Shown here piece by piece: positions 18,060-25,513 of a stretch of 64,000 nt of DNA. The DNA lies in contig NZ_VJZZ01000003.1 in the NCBI RefSeq assembly GCF_009659535.1, positions 186,001 through 250,000 on the forward strand, read 5' to 3'. The number at the start of each line of letters is the position of its first letter. Within the stretch, counting starts at the first letter, position 1. The position numbers and the translations under genes were made by a program. Under the pieces are notes generated by a model. The model did no database searches. It had not been told where the DNA came from and worked only from the letters and a program-made list of their open reading frames with translations. This DNA is from Aggregicoccus sp. 17bor-14. GTDB taxonomy: Bacteria; Myxococcota; Myxococcia; Myxococcales; Myxococcaceae.

Positions 18060-18923
18060 TCAGGCCGTGCGCAGCTCTCCCTCGCGCGGAGGCGGGAGGC
18101 GCTCGCCGCGCGCGATGGCGCCCACGATGCGCGCGAGCTGCTCCACCCCGTCGCTCAGCGCCGCGGGGCCCGGCTGCAGGATGAGGCTGCTCTTCACCTC
18201 GTAGAGCTGGTCGTCCTTCACCGCCTGGACCTCGGCCCAGCCGGGGCGCTGGCGGATCTTCTCGCGCTTCGCCTTGCGCCCGCACCAGCTCGCGATGACG
18301 CCCTCGGGGTTGCGCCGCGCCACCTCCTCGGGCGCGTAGATGCGGCCCTTCGCGCCCTGCTGGCTGCGCGTCTCGGCGCACACGTCCTCGCCGCCCACCA
18401 GCTCCACCAGCTCCGAGCACCAGCGGATGCCGGAGATGAGCGGCTCGTGCCACTCCTCGAAGAAGATGCGCGGGCGGCGCGGCAGCGCCCGGGCCGCCTC
18501 CGCATGGCGGCGCAGGTTGCCCTCGAGCTCCTGCGCGAGCTGCTCGCTGCGCTCCGGCAGCCCCACCAGCGCGCCCACCACCCGCACGGTCTGGAGGATC
18601 TGCGCGAGCGAGCGCTGGTTGAAGAGGTAGACGGGCACCCCGCGCTTGGCCAGCTCGCGGCCCAGGTCCGCCTGCAGGTCGCTGAAGCCCAGCACCAGGT
18701 CGGGCGCCAGCTCGAGGATGCGCTCGAAGTTCGCATCCAGGAAGGAGCTCACCCGCGGCTTCTTGCGCGCCTCGGGCGGGCGCACCGTGAAGCCGCTCAC
18801 CCCCACCACCCGGTCCTCCGCCCCGATGCGGTAGAGGATCTCGGTGGTCTCCTCGGTCATGCAGACGATGCGCTGGGGGTAGCGCGGTGCGGAGGAGAGC
18901 AGCTGCTCGAGGCGGGCGTCCAT
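18060..18923 (-). CDS. BtuF-like (cobalamin/iron-type) substrate-binding protein without signal peptide
   Basis: 287 residues. The fold is that of class III ABC solute-binding proteins: RIVCMTEETTEILYRIGAEDRVVGVSG opens the first lobe, LELAPDLVLGFSDLQADLGREL and KRGVPVYLF follow, and the second lobe contains PRIFFEEWHEPLISG and RIYAPEEVARRNPEGVIASW. These are typical of cobalamin- and siderophore-binding proteins such as BtuF. The start at ATG 18923, with AGGGGCGGG upstream, gives no signal peptide or lipobox, and there is no permease or ATPase gene beside it. The protein may be cytoplasmic or an orphan, and its ligand is unproven. Confidence 0.82.
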   Translation of the reverse strand: MDARLEQLLSSAPRYPQRIVCMTEETTEILYRIGAEDRVVGVSGFTVRPPEARKKPRVSSFLDANFERILELAPDLVLGFSDLQADLGRELAKRGVPVYLFNQRSLAQILQTVRVVGALVGLPERSEQLAQELEGNLRRHAEAARALPRRPRIFFEEWHEPLISGIRWCSELVELVGGEDVCAETRSQQGAKGRIYAPEEVARRNPEGVIASWCGRKAKREKIRQRPGWAEVQAVKDDQLYEVKSSLILQPGPAALSDGVEQLARIVGAIARGERLPPPREGELRTA

Positions 18924-19471: not shown

Positions 19472-21133
19472 ATGATCGAGCGCAACACCATTCCCAAACT
19501 CGCTCCGACCGAGGTGGGTGACCCGTTGATCGGGCGCGTGCTCAACGACCGCTTCCGCATCATCGAGGTGCTGGGCTCGGGCGGCATGGGGCGCGTGTAC
19601 AAGGCGATGCAGGCGCCGCTCGACCGCCTCGTGGCGCTCAAGGTGCTCAACGCGAGCTACGCGGGCAGCACGGACCCGGGCTTCCAGAAGCGCTTCTTCC
19701 TCGAGGCCAGCGTCACCAGCAAGCTGCGCCACCCGAACACCATCACCGTCATCGACTACGGCAAGACGGACGACGGCATCTTCTTCATCGCGATGGAGTA
19801 CCTCGAGGGCAAGACGCTCGCGCAGGTGCTCACCCAGCTGGGGCCGCAGCCCTGGGGCCGGGCGCTGTCCATCGGCATGCAGATCGCGCGCTCGCTGCGC
19901 GAGGCGCACAAGGTCGGCCTCATCCACCGCGACCTCAAGCCCGCCAACGTGATGGTGATCAACCAGGAGGAGGCGGACACGGACCTGATCAAGGTCCTCG
20001 ACTTCGGCCTGGTGAAGAGCTTCACGCCGGACGCGGCGGTGAAGACCCCGAGCGACACCGAGCTCACGCAGAACGGCGTCATCCTGGGCTCCCCGCAGTA
20101 CATGGCGCCCGAGCAGGCGCGCAACATCTCGGACCCGCGCTCGGACGTGTACAGCCTGGGCGTGCTGCTCTACCAGACGCTCACCGGCCGCCCGCCCTTC
20201 CAGGCCGCGCAGAGCATCGACGTCATCATCAAGCACCTCAACGAGCCGCCCCCGCCCTTCAGCAGCGTGTGGCCCAACCACGCCATCCCCCAGGAGGTGG
20301 AGGCGCTGGTGATGAAGTGCCTGGAGAAGCGGCCCGACCAGCGCTTCCAGTCCATGGAGGAGGTGCTCGAGGGGATGAAGCGCGCGAGCACCAGCGCGGG
20401 GATGAGCGGCGCCTTCAACACCAGCCCGCAGATGATAGGCAGCGGCCCCCTGCAGGTGAACACGGGCGCCCTGCGCGTGAGCTCCACCGCGGCGTCGCGC
20501 CTGAGCCAGACCGGTGCGCAGCGCCTGCAGCAGGCGGCGGCCGCTGCGCAGGGCGGCACCGGCGCGCACACGCTCGCGCTGGACGTGTCGCTCGACGACG
20601 AGGCCCCCAAGCGCAAGCTGCTGCCGCTCGCGCTCTTCGGCGGCGCGGCCCTGCTGGGCGTGGGCGCGGCCGCCCTCTTCTTCCTGCGCTCGCCGGCCCC
20701 TGCGCCCGCGGCGCCTGCGCCGGTGGCCCAGGCGGCTGCCGCGCCCGCGACGCAGCCCGCCGCCCCCGCGCCGCAGCAGCCGGCGGTGGCCGCCGCGGCG
20801 CAGCCCGCGTCCACCGAGCCCGTGCAGCCCGCGAAGCCGGTGAAGCCTGAGGTGGTGCCGGTGCGCTTCCTGGTCGCGAGCGAGCCCTCGGGCGCGCGCG
20901 TCCTCTACCGCGGCCGCAGCCTGGGCGAGACGCCCGTGCAGCTCGAGGTGGAGCCGGGCGCGCGCGGCCGCGCCGAGGCGGAGCTCACCTTCGTGCTCTC
21001 CGGCTACGAGCGCACCGTGGCCACCGCCGAGGGGCGCGGCCCCGAGGTGCGCTTCACGCAGAAGCTGAAGAAGAAAAATGAGGCGAAGCCGAAGCCCGGC
21101 TCGCCTGGTTACAAGGACGACCCGTACCAGTGA
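19472..21133 (+). CDS. Hanks-type Ser/Thr kinase with transmembrane anchor and PEGA domain
   Basis: 553 residues from ATG 19472; the frame is open further upstream, but homology begins here. The kinase domain spans about 28-300: glycine loop GSGGMGRVYKA, VALK Lys57, HRDLKPAN at 152-159, DFG at 177-179 and YMAPEQA near 210. A Ser/Thr/Gln-rich juxtamembrane stretch leads to one transmembrane helix at about 383-405. An Ala/Pro-rich linker and a PEGA domain (about 463-530: RFLVASEPSGARVLYRGRSL) should lie in the periplasm. It is the first gene of a four-gene cassette. Its TGA stop lies within the GTGA that starts the TonB-dependent receptor gene, so the two products are made in coupled fashion. 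Confidence 0.93.
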   Translation: MIERNTIPKLAPTEVGDPLIGRVLNDRFRIIEVLGSGGMGRVYKAMQAPLDRLVALKVLNASYAGSTDPGFQKRFFLEASVTSKLRHPNTITVIDYGKTDDGIFFIAMEYLEGKTLAQVLTQLGPQPWGRALSIGMQIARSLREAHKVGLIHRDLKPANVMVINQEEADTDLIKVLDFGLVKSFTPDAAVKTPSDTELTQNGVILGSPQYMAPEQARNISDPRSDVYSLGVLLYQTLTGRPPFQAAQSIDVIIKHLNEPPPPFSSVWPNHAIPQEVEALVMKCLEKRPDQRFQSMEEVLEGMKRASTSAGMSGAFNTSPQMIGSGPLQVNTGALRVSSTAASRLSQTGAQRLQQAAAAAQGGTGAHTLALDVSLDDEAPKRKLLPLALFGGAALLGVGAAALFFLRSPAPAPAAPAPVAQAAAAPATQPAAPAPQQPAVAAAAQPASTEPVQPAKPVKPEVVPVRFLVASEPSGARVLYRGRSLGETPVQLEVEPGARGRAEAELTFVLSGYERTVATAEGRGPEVRFTQKLKKKNEAKPKPGSPGYKDDPYQ

Positions 21134-23769
21134 AACCCTCCCAGGTGGTGAAGAGAGCAGGTCTCGTCGCGCTGATCCTCGGCTCGACGCAGGCCCTGGC
21201 GGACGAGCGCCTCGAGGCGCGCCGTCACTTCCGCAACGGCATGGCCCTGGTCGCCCAGGGGCAGCTGGACAGCGGCGTGGCCGAGCTGCAGGAGGCGTAC
21301 GCCATCAAGCCGCACCCCAACGTCCTCTACAACATCGCGCGCGCCTACCACGACGCGGGCCGCATCCCCGAGGCGGTGGACTGGTACAAGCGCTACCTCA
21401 CGTACAACCCGGCCGACAGCGAGCCGGTGCGCGTGACGCTCGCGCAGCTGGAGAAGAGCCTGCAGCCGGCAGCGCCCGCTCCCGGTGAGCTCGCCGCCGC
21501 CGCCGTGCCGCAGCTGCAGCAGCCGCAGCAGGCCGCCGCTTCCGCAGCAGCGGGCTCGGCCGCGGGCTCCACCACGGGCAGCGCGAGCCTCAAGATGCCT
21601 CCGCCCCCGGCGGGCATGACGGCGCTGATGAGCGAGGAGCGCGCGAAGCAGCTCGCGAGCCTGCTCGAGCGCCTGGAGAAGGCCGTGGACCGCGCCGAGG
21701 CGACGCAGCAGGCCCAGGCCCAGGCGCAGGAGCCGGCCGCGCCGCTGTTCCCGGTGGTCACCGGCGCCGAGGTGGCGCTGAGCGGCGAGGAGGCGGCGAG
21801 CGCGGTGCCCTACGAGGAGCAGGTGGTGACGGCGAGCCGCCGCGCCCAGAGCTCGCTCGAGAGCCCCAACGCGATGACGGTCATCACGGCCGAGGACATC
21901 CGCCTGTCGGGCGCCACCAACCTGGTGGAGCTGATGCGGCGCGTGCCGGGCGCGGACGTGATGGCGCTGGGCGTGGGCAGCGCCAACGTGTCCTTCCGCG
22001 GCTTCAACCAGCGCATCGCCAACAAGGTGCTGGTGCTGGTGGACGGGCGCAGCGAGTACCAGGACTTCATGGGCACCATCCTCTGGGATGGCTTCACCAT
22101 CGGGCTCGAGGAGATCGAGCGCATCGAGGTGATCCGCGGCCCCGGCTCCGCGCTCTACGGCGCGAACGCGATGCTCGGCGTGGTGAACATCATCACCAAG
22201 GCGCCGGGCTCGGGCCCCCGCGGGCAGTTCAACCTCGCCGCCGGCGCCGGCAACACCGCCAAGGGCTCCTTCGTGAGCTTCGGCGGCGACGGCGCCATGC
22301 GCTACCGCGCCAGCGTGGGCTACGGCCAGGCCAACAAGTGGAGCCGCGACTACGCCTCGGACCGCCCGGACATGGAGGAGGTGGCCCCCAGCAGCTGGGC
22401 CCGCGACGCGGACATGGGCAGCCGCACCGCGCGCGCCAACGTGAGCAGCCGCATCGCGCTCAACAAGCAGTCCGCGGTGGACCTGAGCGCGGGCGTGAAC
22501 CGCTTCTACTCCGAGGTCTACCCGCTCGGCACGCTGCGCAACTACAACCTGGACGGCTACAGCATCAACGGCAAGGCTGACCTCTCGGTGGGCCCGGTCA
22601 AGCTCAAGACCTTCTGGAACCACCTGGAGACGGACGCGGGGCCCGAGTACGAGGCCATCGGCACGCGCTCGCTCGCCACGCGGCTCAACGCCAACGTCGT
22701 CAACACGGAGCTCGTCTACAGCGACGGCTTCCAGCTGGTGGGGGAGCACCAGGCCACGGTGGGCGTGGAGGGCCGCCTCAAGCGCGTGGACTGGGACTAC
22801 GTGGGCGGCAAGCACCAGGAGAACCACTTCGCGGCCTTCCTCCAGGACGAGTGGCAGCTCTCCAAGACCTTCCGGCTCGTGGGCAGCTACCGCGTGGACA
22901 GCCACCCGCTGCTGGACAACGGCAAGCGCGGCCTCGCGCACAGCCCGCGCGTCTCGGCGCTCATCTTCCCCTTCGAGGGGCAGGCCTTCCGCGTGAGCCT
23001 CGCGACCGCGTTCCGCGAGCCCACCTTCCTCGAGAGCTACACGGCGCTGCGCGTGCCGGCCCCGGGCGTGAACGGCGCGAGCGTGCAGACCGTGGGCAAC
23101 CCGGCGCTGCGCCCCGAGCGGCTCACCGCCTACGAGTTCGGCTACCGCGGCGAGGCTCCCACCCTGGGTATGGAGTGGGACGTGGCGCTGTACCAGAACA
23201 CGGTGAAGGACCTCATCGTGCTCTCGGCGGTGGAGCGGCTGCCGGCCGGTGACTCCTACGATCCGGTGAGCCAGAGCTTCCTCATCGGGCGCTCGGCCTT
23301 CACCAACGAGGACGACACGTACGTGGCGCGCGGCGGCGAGGTGAGCCTCTCGGCCGCGCCCCTGGACGGCCTCGGCGTGAAGCTGGGCACGGGCATCCAG
23401 AAGATCAGCTCGGACTTCCAGCGCGGGGACGCGTGCGTGCCTTGCCGCCAGGCCCCGGGCCTGAAGCTGTTCGGCGCGCTCACCTACCGCACCCGCCGCG
23501 GCCTGGAGCTGGGCACGGACGCCACCTACACCTCCTCCACCCGCTGGATCGAGCGCGAGCCGTCCGCCGCGGACCCCACGCAGATCAACCTCAACGCCAA
23601 CGCCCTGCCCTCCTACACGGTGATCAACGCGCGCGTGGGCTACGAGGCCATCAAGGACCGGCTCACCGTGGCCCTGGTGGGCACGCAGCTGGGCAACGAC
23701 CACTTCGAGCACCCGTTCGGCAATCGCATCGAGCGCCGCGTCCTCGGCCTCCTGACGGTGACCCCGTGA
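21130..23769 (+). CDS. TonB-dependent receptor with N-terminal TPR domain
   Basis: 879 residues. A signal peptide (about 1-24) is followed by TPR-like helices at 28-112 (RRHFRNGMALVAQGQLDSG, PNVLYNIARAYHDAGRIPEAVDWYKRYL) and a long Ala/Gln linker to about 220. Next comes a TonB plug (EEQVVTASRRAQSS, then LVELMRRVPGADVMALG, LVLVDGRSEYQDFMGT, IERIEVIRGPGSALYGANA) and a 22-strand-type barrel ending in RIERRVLGLLTVTP. The TPR addition is unusual for this family, which normally begins with the TonB box. The ligand is unknown. Being coupled to a kinase and a response regulator suggests regulated uptake or signalling rather than a standard siderophore system. It starts at GTG 21130, in a GTGA overlap. 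Confidence 0.92.
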   Translation: MKPSQVVKRAGLVALILGSTQALADERLEARRHFRNGMALVAQGQLDSGVAELQEAYAIKPHPNVLYNIARAYHDAGRIPEAVDWYKRYLTYNPADSEPVRVTLAQLEKSLQPAAPAPGELAAAAVPQLQQPQQAAASAAAGSAAGSTTGSASLKMPPPPAGMTALMSEERAKQLASLLERLEKAVDRAEATQQAQAQAQEPAAPLFPVVTGAEVALSGEEAASAVPYEEQVVTASRRAQSSLESPNAMTVITAEDIRLSGATNLVELMRRVPGADVMALGVGSANVSFRGFNQRIANKVLVLVDGRSEYQDFMGTILWDGFTIGLEEIERIEVIRGPGSALYGANAMLGVVNIITKAPGSGPRGQFNLAAGAGNTAKGSFVSFGGDGAMRYRASVGYGQANKWSRDYASDRPDMEEVAPSSWARDADMGSRTARANVSSRIALNKQSAVDLSAGVNRFYSEVYPLGTLRNYNLDGYSINGKADLSVGPVKLKTFWNHLETDAGPEYEAIGTRSLATRLNANVVNTELVYSDGFQLVGEHQATVGVEGRLKRVDWDYVGGKHQENHFAAFLQDEWQLSKTFRLVGSYRVDSHPLLDNGKRGLAHSPRVSALIFPFEGQAFRVSLATAFREPTFLESYTALRVPAPGVNGASVQTVGNPALRPERLTAYEFGYRGEAPTLGMEWDVALYQNTVKDLIVLSAVERLPAGDSYDPVSQSFLIGRSAFTNEDDTYVARGGEVSLSAAPLDGLGVKLGTGIQKISSDFQRGDACVPCRQAPGLKLFGALTYRTRRGLELGTDATYTSSTRWIEREPSAADPTQINLNANALPSYTVINARVGYEAIKDRLTVALVGTQLGNDHFEHPFGNRIERRVLGLLTVTP

Positions 23770-25061
23770 TGTACGCCATGTCCTCCTCCCGCAGCCTCGT
23801 CGCCTCCTCCCTCGCCGCGCTGCTGCTGGCCTCCGCCGGCTGCGACTCGCCCCCCGTGGTGCCCACGGCGGACCTGCGCCAGAACACCGAGACCGCCCGC
23901 ATCGAGGGGCAGGTGGTGGTGCAGAGCCAGGTGCGCGGCGACGTGATCGTGCTCCTGTACGCGAAGGACCGGCCGCCCCCTCCCGCGGGCAGCGGCCGCC
24001 CCATCTCCTTCACCATCGTCCCGATGGAGAAGGTGTTCGGCCAGGAGCTGGACAAGAAGGACGCGACCGGCAAGTACACCGCCGGCCCCTTCGTCGCGCC
24101 CTTCGCCTTCAGCCTCGTGCCCGAGGGCAAGTACCTGGTGCGCGGCTTCGTGGACGCGGACACCTGCCGCCGCGTGGCTGCGTCCGCGAGCTGCCACGGC
24201 GCGGACTTCAACCCCTTCTACGGCGTCACCGGTGAGCCCAACCAGTTCGACGTGGGCGGCGCCGCGGTGGACCTCAACGACCCCAAGCGCGGCATGCTGG
24301 TGGTCAGCGTGGAGCGCGGCTCGGACGGCAAGCTGGTGCCCGCGCTGGGCGTGAGCGTGAGCTTCTCGGACACGGCCACCGTGCCCTTCGACCGCCCGGC
24401 CTTCGAGGCCTCCGCGCCGGTGACGCTCGCCCCCGGCACGCAGGGCATCACGCTCAAGCCGCTCAAGGTGGCCGAGGGCGGCGTGAACGAGGCCCCGCCG
24501 GCCTTCTTCGTGCGCTACGTGGACGACAACGGCGACGGCGTCCCGGACGATGCCAACGGCGACGGCGCCCCGGACCTCTGGCCGCGGGTGGTGGTGCGCA
24601 AGCTGTCCTCGGACAAGAACGCCGTCCCGCTGCTCACGGACGAGAACGACCTGGACCGCAATGGCATCCTGGACGCCGAGGGGGCCTCGTACACCACGAC
24701 GGACGGCAGCCCGACCGGCCCCGCCCTGGTGGTGATGGCGGCGGGCCTGGTGCCCAACAGCCTGTACCCGCTGCTCAACAACGACGACGGCACGCCGAAG
24801 AAGAACCCGGACGGCAGCTTCTACGTCGCCGCGGTGCCCAGCCTCACGGTGGCCGTGCGCAACCTCGCGCTCAACGCCGCGAGCGGCGCGCCCAAGCCCC
24901 TGACGTCGGTGCCCGTGGGCAACTACAGCGTGCTGCTGATGAACTTCACCGGCCAGACGTGGAAGGTGCCCAACGAGCTGGCGCCCCCGCTCGCGCCGAA
25001 CATGGGCTTTCCCAGCGTGCAGACCCAGGCCTTCACCTACGCCGTCACCGCGGCCCCGTGA
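23769..25061 (+). CDS. Lipoprotein with DxDGD-type repeats, partner of the TonB receptor
   Basis: 430 residues from ATG 23769, which shares one base with the receptor stop (TGATG). A signal peptide ends in a lipobox-like LLASAGC. A beta-rich N-terminal domain (IEGQVVVQSQVRGDVIVLLYAK, SLVPEGKYLVRGFVDAD) resembles the carbohydrate-binding or prealbumin-like modules that describe lipoprotein cargo handling. Residues about 258-275 carry a calcium-type Asp repeat (DDNGDGVPDDANGDGAPD), and a second one follows (DENDLDRNGILDAEG). Its position after a TonB receptor suggests a surface or periplasmic accessory subunit, as with SusD-type partners, but there is no sequence link to SusD. I do not recognise the family. 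Confidence 0.75.
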   Translation: MYAMSSSRSLVASSLAALLLASAGCDSPPVVPTADLRQNTETARIEGQVVVQSQVRGDVIVLLYAKDRPPPPAGSGRPISFTIVPMEKVFGQELDKKDATGKYTAGPFVAPFAFSLVPEGKYLVRGFVDADTCRRVAASASCHGADFNPFYGVTGEPNQFDVGGAAVDLNDPKRGMLVVSVERGSDGKLVPALGVSVSFSDTATVPFDRPAFEASAPVTLAPGTQGITLKPLKVAEGGVNEAPPAFFVRYVDDNGDGVPDDANGDGAPDLWPRVVVRKLSSDKNAVPLLTDENDLDRNGILDAEGASYTTTDGSPTGPALVVMAAGLVPNSLYPLLNNDDGTPKKNPDGSFYVAAVPSLTVAVRNLALNAASGAPKPLTSVPVGNYSVLLMNFTGQTWKVPNELAPPLAPNMGFPSVQTQAFTYAVTAAP

Positions 25062-25513
25062 CGCAGCCTCCCCTGCCCCGCCCTCCCTCCGTCAGCCTGC
25101 CCGTGCCCGGCGCCCTGCGCGCCGGGCCGGGCGCCCAGCGGGTGCTCGTCGTGGACGACAGCCGCTCCATCCGCACGCTGCTGAAGATCTACCTCGCCGG
25201 CCGCGCCTTCGACTTCGTGGAGGCCGAGAGCGCGGAGGAGGCCCTGCAGCTCTTGCAGGCGCAGCCGGTGGACCTGGTGCTCACCGACCTCTACCTCGAG
25301 GGGATGAGCGGCGCGGACCTCGCGGCGCGCATCCGCGGGGACGCGCGGCTGCGCCGCACGCCGGTGCTGATGATCAGCGGCGAGCGCGACCCGCAGCGCC
25401 TCGCGGCGCTCGCCCGCAGCGCCGGCGTGGACGCCGTCCTGCCCAAGCCCATCAGCTGCAACCAGCTGATGGGGCTGGTGGACCGGCTGCTGCCCCCGCA
25501 GCGCCGCGTTTGA
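25058..25513 (+). CDS. Single-domain response regulator
   Basis: 151 residues from GTG 25058 (GTGA overlap with the lipoprotein stop). After a Pro-rich N-terminus of about 28 residues there is one receiver domain and nothing else. It contains the acidic pair VLVVDDSRSIRTLL, the phospho-acceptor Asp in LVLTDLYLEGMSG, the conserved hydroxyl residue in VLMISGE and the Lys in VLPKPI. With no output domain it probably works by protein-protein contact. As the last gene of the kinase/TonB cassette it may take its phosphate from a histidine kinase encoded elsewhere; no histidine kinase gene is in this window. Confidence 0.88.
   Translation: MTQPPLPRPPSVSLPVPGALRAGPGAQRVLVVDDSRSIRTLLKIYLAGRAFDFVEAESAEEALQLLQAQPVDLVLTDLYLEGMSGADLAARIRGDARLRRTPVLMISGERDPQRLAALARSAGVDAVLPKPISCNQLMGLVDRLLPPQRRV

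Follow-up and report, generated by a model that had tools for sequence, protein, structure and literature searches.

Whether a Ser/Thr protein kinase, an outer membrane receptor, a lipoprotein and a response regulator that are encoded by successive, overlapping genes act together as one unit, and what such a unit might do, is the question raised by the locus considered here. The locus lies within a stretch of 64,000 nucleotides, all of which was available for analysis and which is referred to below as the window. The genes concerned, together with one divergent neighbor, are as follows:

19472..21133, + strand, Ser/Thr protein kinase gene (ATG 19472, TGA 21133; 553 aa)
21130..23769, + strand, TPR-TonB-dependent receptor gene (GTG 21130, TGA 23769; 879 aa)
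23769..25061, + strand, lipoprotein gene (ATG 23769, TGA 25061; 430 aa)
25058..25513, + strand, single-domain response regulator gene (GTG 25058, TGA 25513), outside the conserved unit
18060-18923, - strand, Peripla_BP_2 (BtuF/FhuD-like) gene, divergent from the kinase gene, apparently encoding a protein without a signal peptide

Gene Junctions and the Response Regulator

Direct reading of the window confirmed the four genes and the junctions described in an earlier sequence-only reading, namely, GTGA between the kinase and receptor genes, TGATG between the receptor and lipoprotein genes and GTGA between the lipoprotein and regulator genes, with the domains of the encoded proteins being confirmed by Pfam. 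An alternative lipoprotein start, a GTG at 23766, would yield a GTGA overlap, with relatives carrying ATGA at the same junction. Short gene overlaps are of a common kind in bacterial operons. As they are so frequent, a single window reveals little in this respect, and conservation in relatives offers the useful test. When the junctions of relatives were tabulated, the receptor-lipoprotein overlap was present in 37 of 38 loci and the kinase-receptor overlap in 21 of 34, while the lipoprotein-regulator overlap was found in one of 19, this being the window itself.

The regulator (Pfam Response_reg, 5e-22) is limited to one Myxococcaceae subclade, where its gene lies 150-400 bp downstream of the lipoprotein gene (once about 1.9 kb), and is absent from beside the other three genes elsewhere. 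No convincing terminator or promoter was detected on the coding strand between the lipoprotein and regulator genes in two relatives. A four-gene unit was rejected given this presence in one subclade, the spacing and an overlap unique to the window, and the regulator was excluded from the unit; it is a local neighbor, incidental to the unit. That all four genes comprise a single functional relay, as the GTGA overlap in the window had invited one to think, is thus highly improbable, the more so as the unit includes no histidine kinase.

Conservation of the Kinase, Receptor and Lipoprotein Genes

The lipoprotein, which matched no Pfam or NCBIfam family, SusD included, was used as a marker of conservation. 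Of the 145 genomes of the order, 99 contained a homologue, and genomes of the family mostly had a single strong match each; a profile search revealed homologues in further families and classes. The kinase-receptor-lipoprotein order was the same in 37 loci examined, wherever the contig was long enough, and was shared by all sampled Myxococcaceae genera in which the locus is intact, as well as being seen in other families and classes of Myxococcota. In a set of five loci from other families or classes, receptor and lipoprotein genes were present in L138-L141, three of which also contained the kinase gene, while in L137 the lipoprotein alone was recognized.

A receptor profile was also compared with 84,980 species genomes, and the best 80 matches listed corresponded to 79 loci, such that further relatives may exist beyond the phylum. 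These were titled mainly Myxococcota or Deltaproteobacteria, with many being metagenome bins; the few titled Pseudomonadota or 'Comamonas' may be mislabelled or contaminated records. Among the matches listed, 55 loci offered enough upstream DNA, and 44 of these showed both the TPR domain and an adjacent kinase. The remaining 11 comprised seven with the TPR domain and no adjacent kinase, two with the kinase only and two with neither, and in all four of the latter loci the TPR domain was located in another frame. The receptor-lipoprotein pair persisted in loci without an adjacent kinase. Other candidate neighbors were rejected, since only the kinase and the lipoprotein recur phylum-wide, the remaining listed clusters seeming for the most part to be high-GC antisense artefacts or flanks shared by close relatives.

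The trio is, therefore, conserved as a unit far beyond Myxococcaceae and its order is not peculiar to this strain. The idea of a multi-compartment unit linking the surface and the cytoplasm is accordingly well supported for the kinase, receptor and lipoprotein, and abandoned for the response regulator. No description of this combination was found in the open-licence literature searched. The three-gene module, presumed to act in signaling, is thus real and conserved and, apparently, undescribed.

The Kinase and Its C-Terminal Tail

The following features were assigned to the kinase:

19556..20365, + strand, cytoplasmic Hanks kinase domain (aa 29-298; Pfam)
20618..20686, + strand, one transmembrane helix following KRK, predicted from hydrophobicity (about aa 383-405)
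20873..21076, + strand, PEGA domain, predicted to be periplasmic (aa 468-535; Pfam 6.7e-6)
21107..21130, + strand, C-terminal tail GYKDDPYQ (aa 546-553), the proposed docking peptide

Pfam recognized both Pkinase (3e-46) and PEGA, the latter clearing its cut-off (26.4 vs. 20.8 bits), making this a Hanks kinase with a PEGA domain. PASTA repeats were absent according to Pfam, and the score against the NCBIfam PASTA-kinase equivalog (305 bits) fell below the cut-off of 450 bits. Alignment of 20 kinase orthologues revealed the GxGGMG loop, K57, HRDLKPAN, DFG and APE to be invariant; with its catalytic Lys, HRD, DFG and APE so preserved, the kinase is probably active. Hydrophobicity and the positive-inside rule point to a protein oriented from cytoplasm to periplasm, with a Pro/Ala-rich linker between the transmembrane helix and the PEGA domain. 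A structure model of an orthologue presents the latter as a compact beta domain (pLDDT 95+). The tail would likewise be periplasmic, judging by the topology (KRK, one transmembrane helix and PEGA).

In the same alignment, K548, D550, P551 and Y552 of the tail were invariant, rendering the tail as invariant as the catalytic motifs, whereas the linker preceding it was hypervariable. The near-invariant consensus at this end of the kinase is G[YF][KR]xxP[YF], a form kept in distant orthologues (GYRDDPY, GYKTDPY, FKDNPY, FKENPY, NYKENPY and GYKSNPF). A DNA pattern for YK[DE]DPY matched in 83 of the 145 genomes of the order, about once per genome, while the reversed control was near-empty; the pattern is rare beyond the order. 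At every locus examined, the match corresponded to the end of this kinase, apart from a second YKDDPY match in three genomes, which was rejected as a further tail, being internal to an unrelated protein rather than C-terminal. When all PEGA proteins of this genome were compared, the tail was absent from the others. An extra YKEDPY-coding match was noted in a distant genome of the same phylum (G167:C71:29844-29861). Paralogous PEGA-type kinases from Polyangia-type genomes (L247, L248, L249, L250 and L277) share a different tail (DIRLHR, DIRLKR or SIRLER), which may represent a second docking-tail class.

In 10 genomes in which no orthologous kinase adjoins the receptor, the kinase is encoded elsewhere and retains a tail of the type G[YF][KR]..[PV]Y (unlinked-kinase tails being GFKDQPY, GFKGLPY, GFKEAPY, GYKPEVPY, GYKVDIPY, FKDDPY, GYRDNVY and GYRVDVY). 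As such, gene linkage of the kinase to the receptor is dispensable, which counts against the relay proposed below. At the same time, the association of the two is more than an effect of operon linkage.

The Receptor and the Lipoprotein

Following a signal peptide (aa 1-24), the receptor presents these features:

21235..21441, + strand, predicted periplasmic TPR domain (aa 36-104) in which IKPHPNVLYNIARAY is invariant; codon of His62 at 21313-21315
21814..21834, + strand, TonB-box-like EEQVVTA (aa 229-235; E229, E230, V232, V233 and A235 conserved)
21859..23676, + strand, plug and beta-barrel (plug aa 244-351, barrel aa 421-849; Pfam)

Pfam identified the TPR domain, the plug (6e-23) and the TonB barrel (2e-29). 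EEQVVTA is a candidate TonB box, in which case the receptor is probably TonB-driven. The TPR domain was retained in essentially all receptor homologues examined and is duplicated in tandem in one receptor (L200, the same as L139, in G162). The same genome encodes another receptor-like protein (992 aa; L301 3159-6134, G000:C6), a single chain that unites a TPR domain with three PEGA repeats and the TonB receptor; VPNRSVLFNIARCY occurs in this TPR domain, with Asn at the position of His62.

The lipoprotein contains a lipobox (..AGC) with Cys25 (codon 23841-23843), which is invariant in the lipoprotein alignment, as are P28, V30 and D35 in the stretch that follows. The remainder is predicted to consist of beta-sandwich domains and DxNxDG-type acidic repeats. 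As Foldseek returned but weak matches of the model (pLDDT 72) to pilin and Ig-like beta domains, with query TM-scores below 0.2, the fold was left unassigned. In one related family (L055, L071 and L072), repetition of these beta domains has enlarged the lipoprotein to about 1000-1400 aa.

Association Between the Kinase Tail and the TPR Domain

The sequence-only reading had looked to the PEGA domain as the part of the kinase contacting the TPR domain. Conservation instead favors the extreme C-terminal tail in this role. His62, in the TPR motif PHPNVLYN, was present in all 54 loci in which the kinase tail ends in PY or PF and in three of 11 loci with other tails; its place is taken by Arg in three loci with GYREW and by Asn in five loci with GYRDNVY or GYRVDVY. 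A second TPR column showed an equally strong association with the tail. A quick tree places the clade with Arg as sister to that with Asn; the joint change of His62 and the tail thus reflects only one or two evolutionary events, and the association is suggestive, not proof, of docking. Asn68 of the TPR domain lies at the presumed position of the carboxylate-clamp Asn43 of Hop.

A fused model was also considered, in which the kinase tail and TPR domain of an orthologue were read through in one frame, with the stop codon rendered as Gly, such that the tail carboxylate is not free. In this artificial fusion (pTM 0.52), the PEGA and TPR domains were confident and the tail block reached a pLDDT of 78, as compared to 54 and 63 on its flanks. 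Foldseek and VIA-align returned TPR matches only, some being peptide-bound, with matched ranges that do not place the tail. Binding of an acidic, Tyr-bearing C-terminal peptide by a TPR domain has been described for kinesin light chain, in the KLC1-JIP1 Y-acidic interaction (PMC6214655).

A Proposed Relay and Its Alternatives

Taken on sequence evidence, it is somewhat probable that the trio forms a trans-envelope signaling module in which the TPR domain of the receptor grips the kinase tail and so relays a surface signal to the kinase. The receptor would bind a ligand at the surface and import it with TonB energy, while its N-terminal TPR domain would grip, in the periplasm, the GYKDDPY tail of the single-pass inner membrane kinase. 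The ligand or transport state would alter this grip, and the change would pass via the PEGA domain and the transmembrane helix to alter the dimerization or activity of the cytoplasmic kinase and, presumably, the phosphorylation of its targets. The lipoprotein, as the constant partner of the receptor, might capture ligand or hold the complex together. The Peripla_BP_2 gene, linked to the locus in many Myxococcaceae, weakly hints at cobalamin or a siderophore as ligand; no cobalamin riboswitch or other Rfam element was detected between 17500 and 27200 up to E=1.

The locus could instead serve uptake alone, with the receptor and lipoprotein importing a nutrient, the kinase regulating import or the envelope without contacting the receptor and the TPR domain binding another periplasmic partner. 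Such an operon would fit with the receptor and lipoprotein genes being the tightest pair, kept together even where no kinase adjoins, and with the linked Peripla_BP_2 gene. It is nonetheless rather unlikely, given that the kinase adjoins the receptor in most loci phylum-wide and keeps its special tail when unlinked, and that the TPR domain is a near-constant part of the receptor. It might also be that all three proteins form one complex in which the tail docks to the lipoprotein or another envelope protein, with the TPR domain holding the lipoprotein or the TonB side. Here, the invariant P28, V30 and D35 just beyond Cys25 would provide a possible TPR ligand, yet the change at His62 tracks the change in the tail and, as weaker evidence, the tail block is modeled with greater confidence next to the TPR domain, making this arrangement improbable. 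Peptidoglycan could be an alternative binding partner of the tail.

Comparison With Known Systems

The proposed relay, with the TPR domain gripping the kinase tail, recalls cell-surface signaling by TonB-dependent transducers, such as FecA-FecR-FecI, FoxA-FoxR, PupB-PupR and HasR-HasS (PMC9249621, PMC11637429). In both, a TonB receptor with plug and barrel bears an additional N-terminal periplasmic domain and a single-pass inner membrane partner offers a periplasmic C-terminal region, with the signal passing, in the trio by inference, from surface to cytoplasm. The systems differ in that the receptor of the trio carries a TPR rather than an STN domain, in that its partner is a Ser/Thr kinase with PEGA and a short tail rather than a FecR-type anti-sigma factor and in that a conserved lipoprotein is included. 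Indeed, Pfam detected no STN or secretin-type domain on the receptor at E<=0.1 and no FecR-type anti-sigma partner, the inner membrane partner being Pkinase plus PEGA, and no ECF sigma factor was found among the neighbors scanned (response regulator, LysR, thioredoxin, Peripla_BP_2, C11 peptidase and Omp85). Lacking the STN domain and FecR partner, the trio falls outside this group; with an anatomy matching part for part, it is proposed to work in like manner with other building blocks.

It is possible, if still doubtful, that the trio defines a new class of Gram-negative cell-surface signaling, ancestral in Myxococcota and present in about one copy per genome, in which the TPR domain of a TonB receptor directly controls a transmembrane Ser/Thr kinase and uptake is read out as phosphorylation. 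Were this so, a phosphorylation branch would be added to the known route from TonB receptor to sigma factor. The Ser/Thr kinase sets of myxobacteria are among the largest, with inputs that are mostly unknown; for one of these kinases, a defined upstream input would follow from its conserved association with an uptake receptor, which it probably contacts through a short tail.

The kinase itself resembles PknB/Stk1-type enzymes in having a cytoplasmic Hanks kinase, one transmembrane helix and an extracytoplasmic sensor part, with PEGA and a fixed C-terminal tail in place of PASTA repeats. TPR domains also bind C-terminal peptides in Hop-Hsp90 and Sec72-Ssa1. As in these pairs and KLC1-JIP1, the TPR domain of the trio is small and would bind a C-terminal peptide of acidic and aromatic character; unlike them, it is predicted to be periplasmic and is fused to a TonB receptor. 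TonB receptors are paired with lipoproteins in SusC-SusD, HpuB-HpuA and TbpA-TbpB, and in the trio, too, the receptor gene adjoins the lipoprotein gene, although the lipoprotein here is predicted to be a beta-sandwich protein, whereas SusD is helical.
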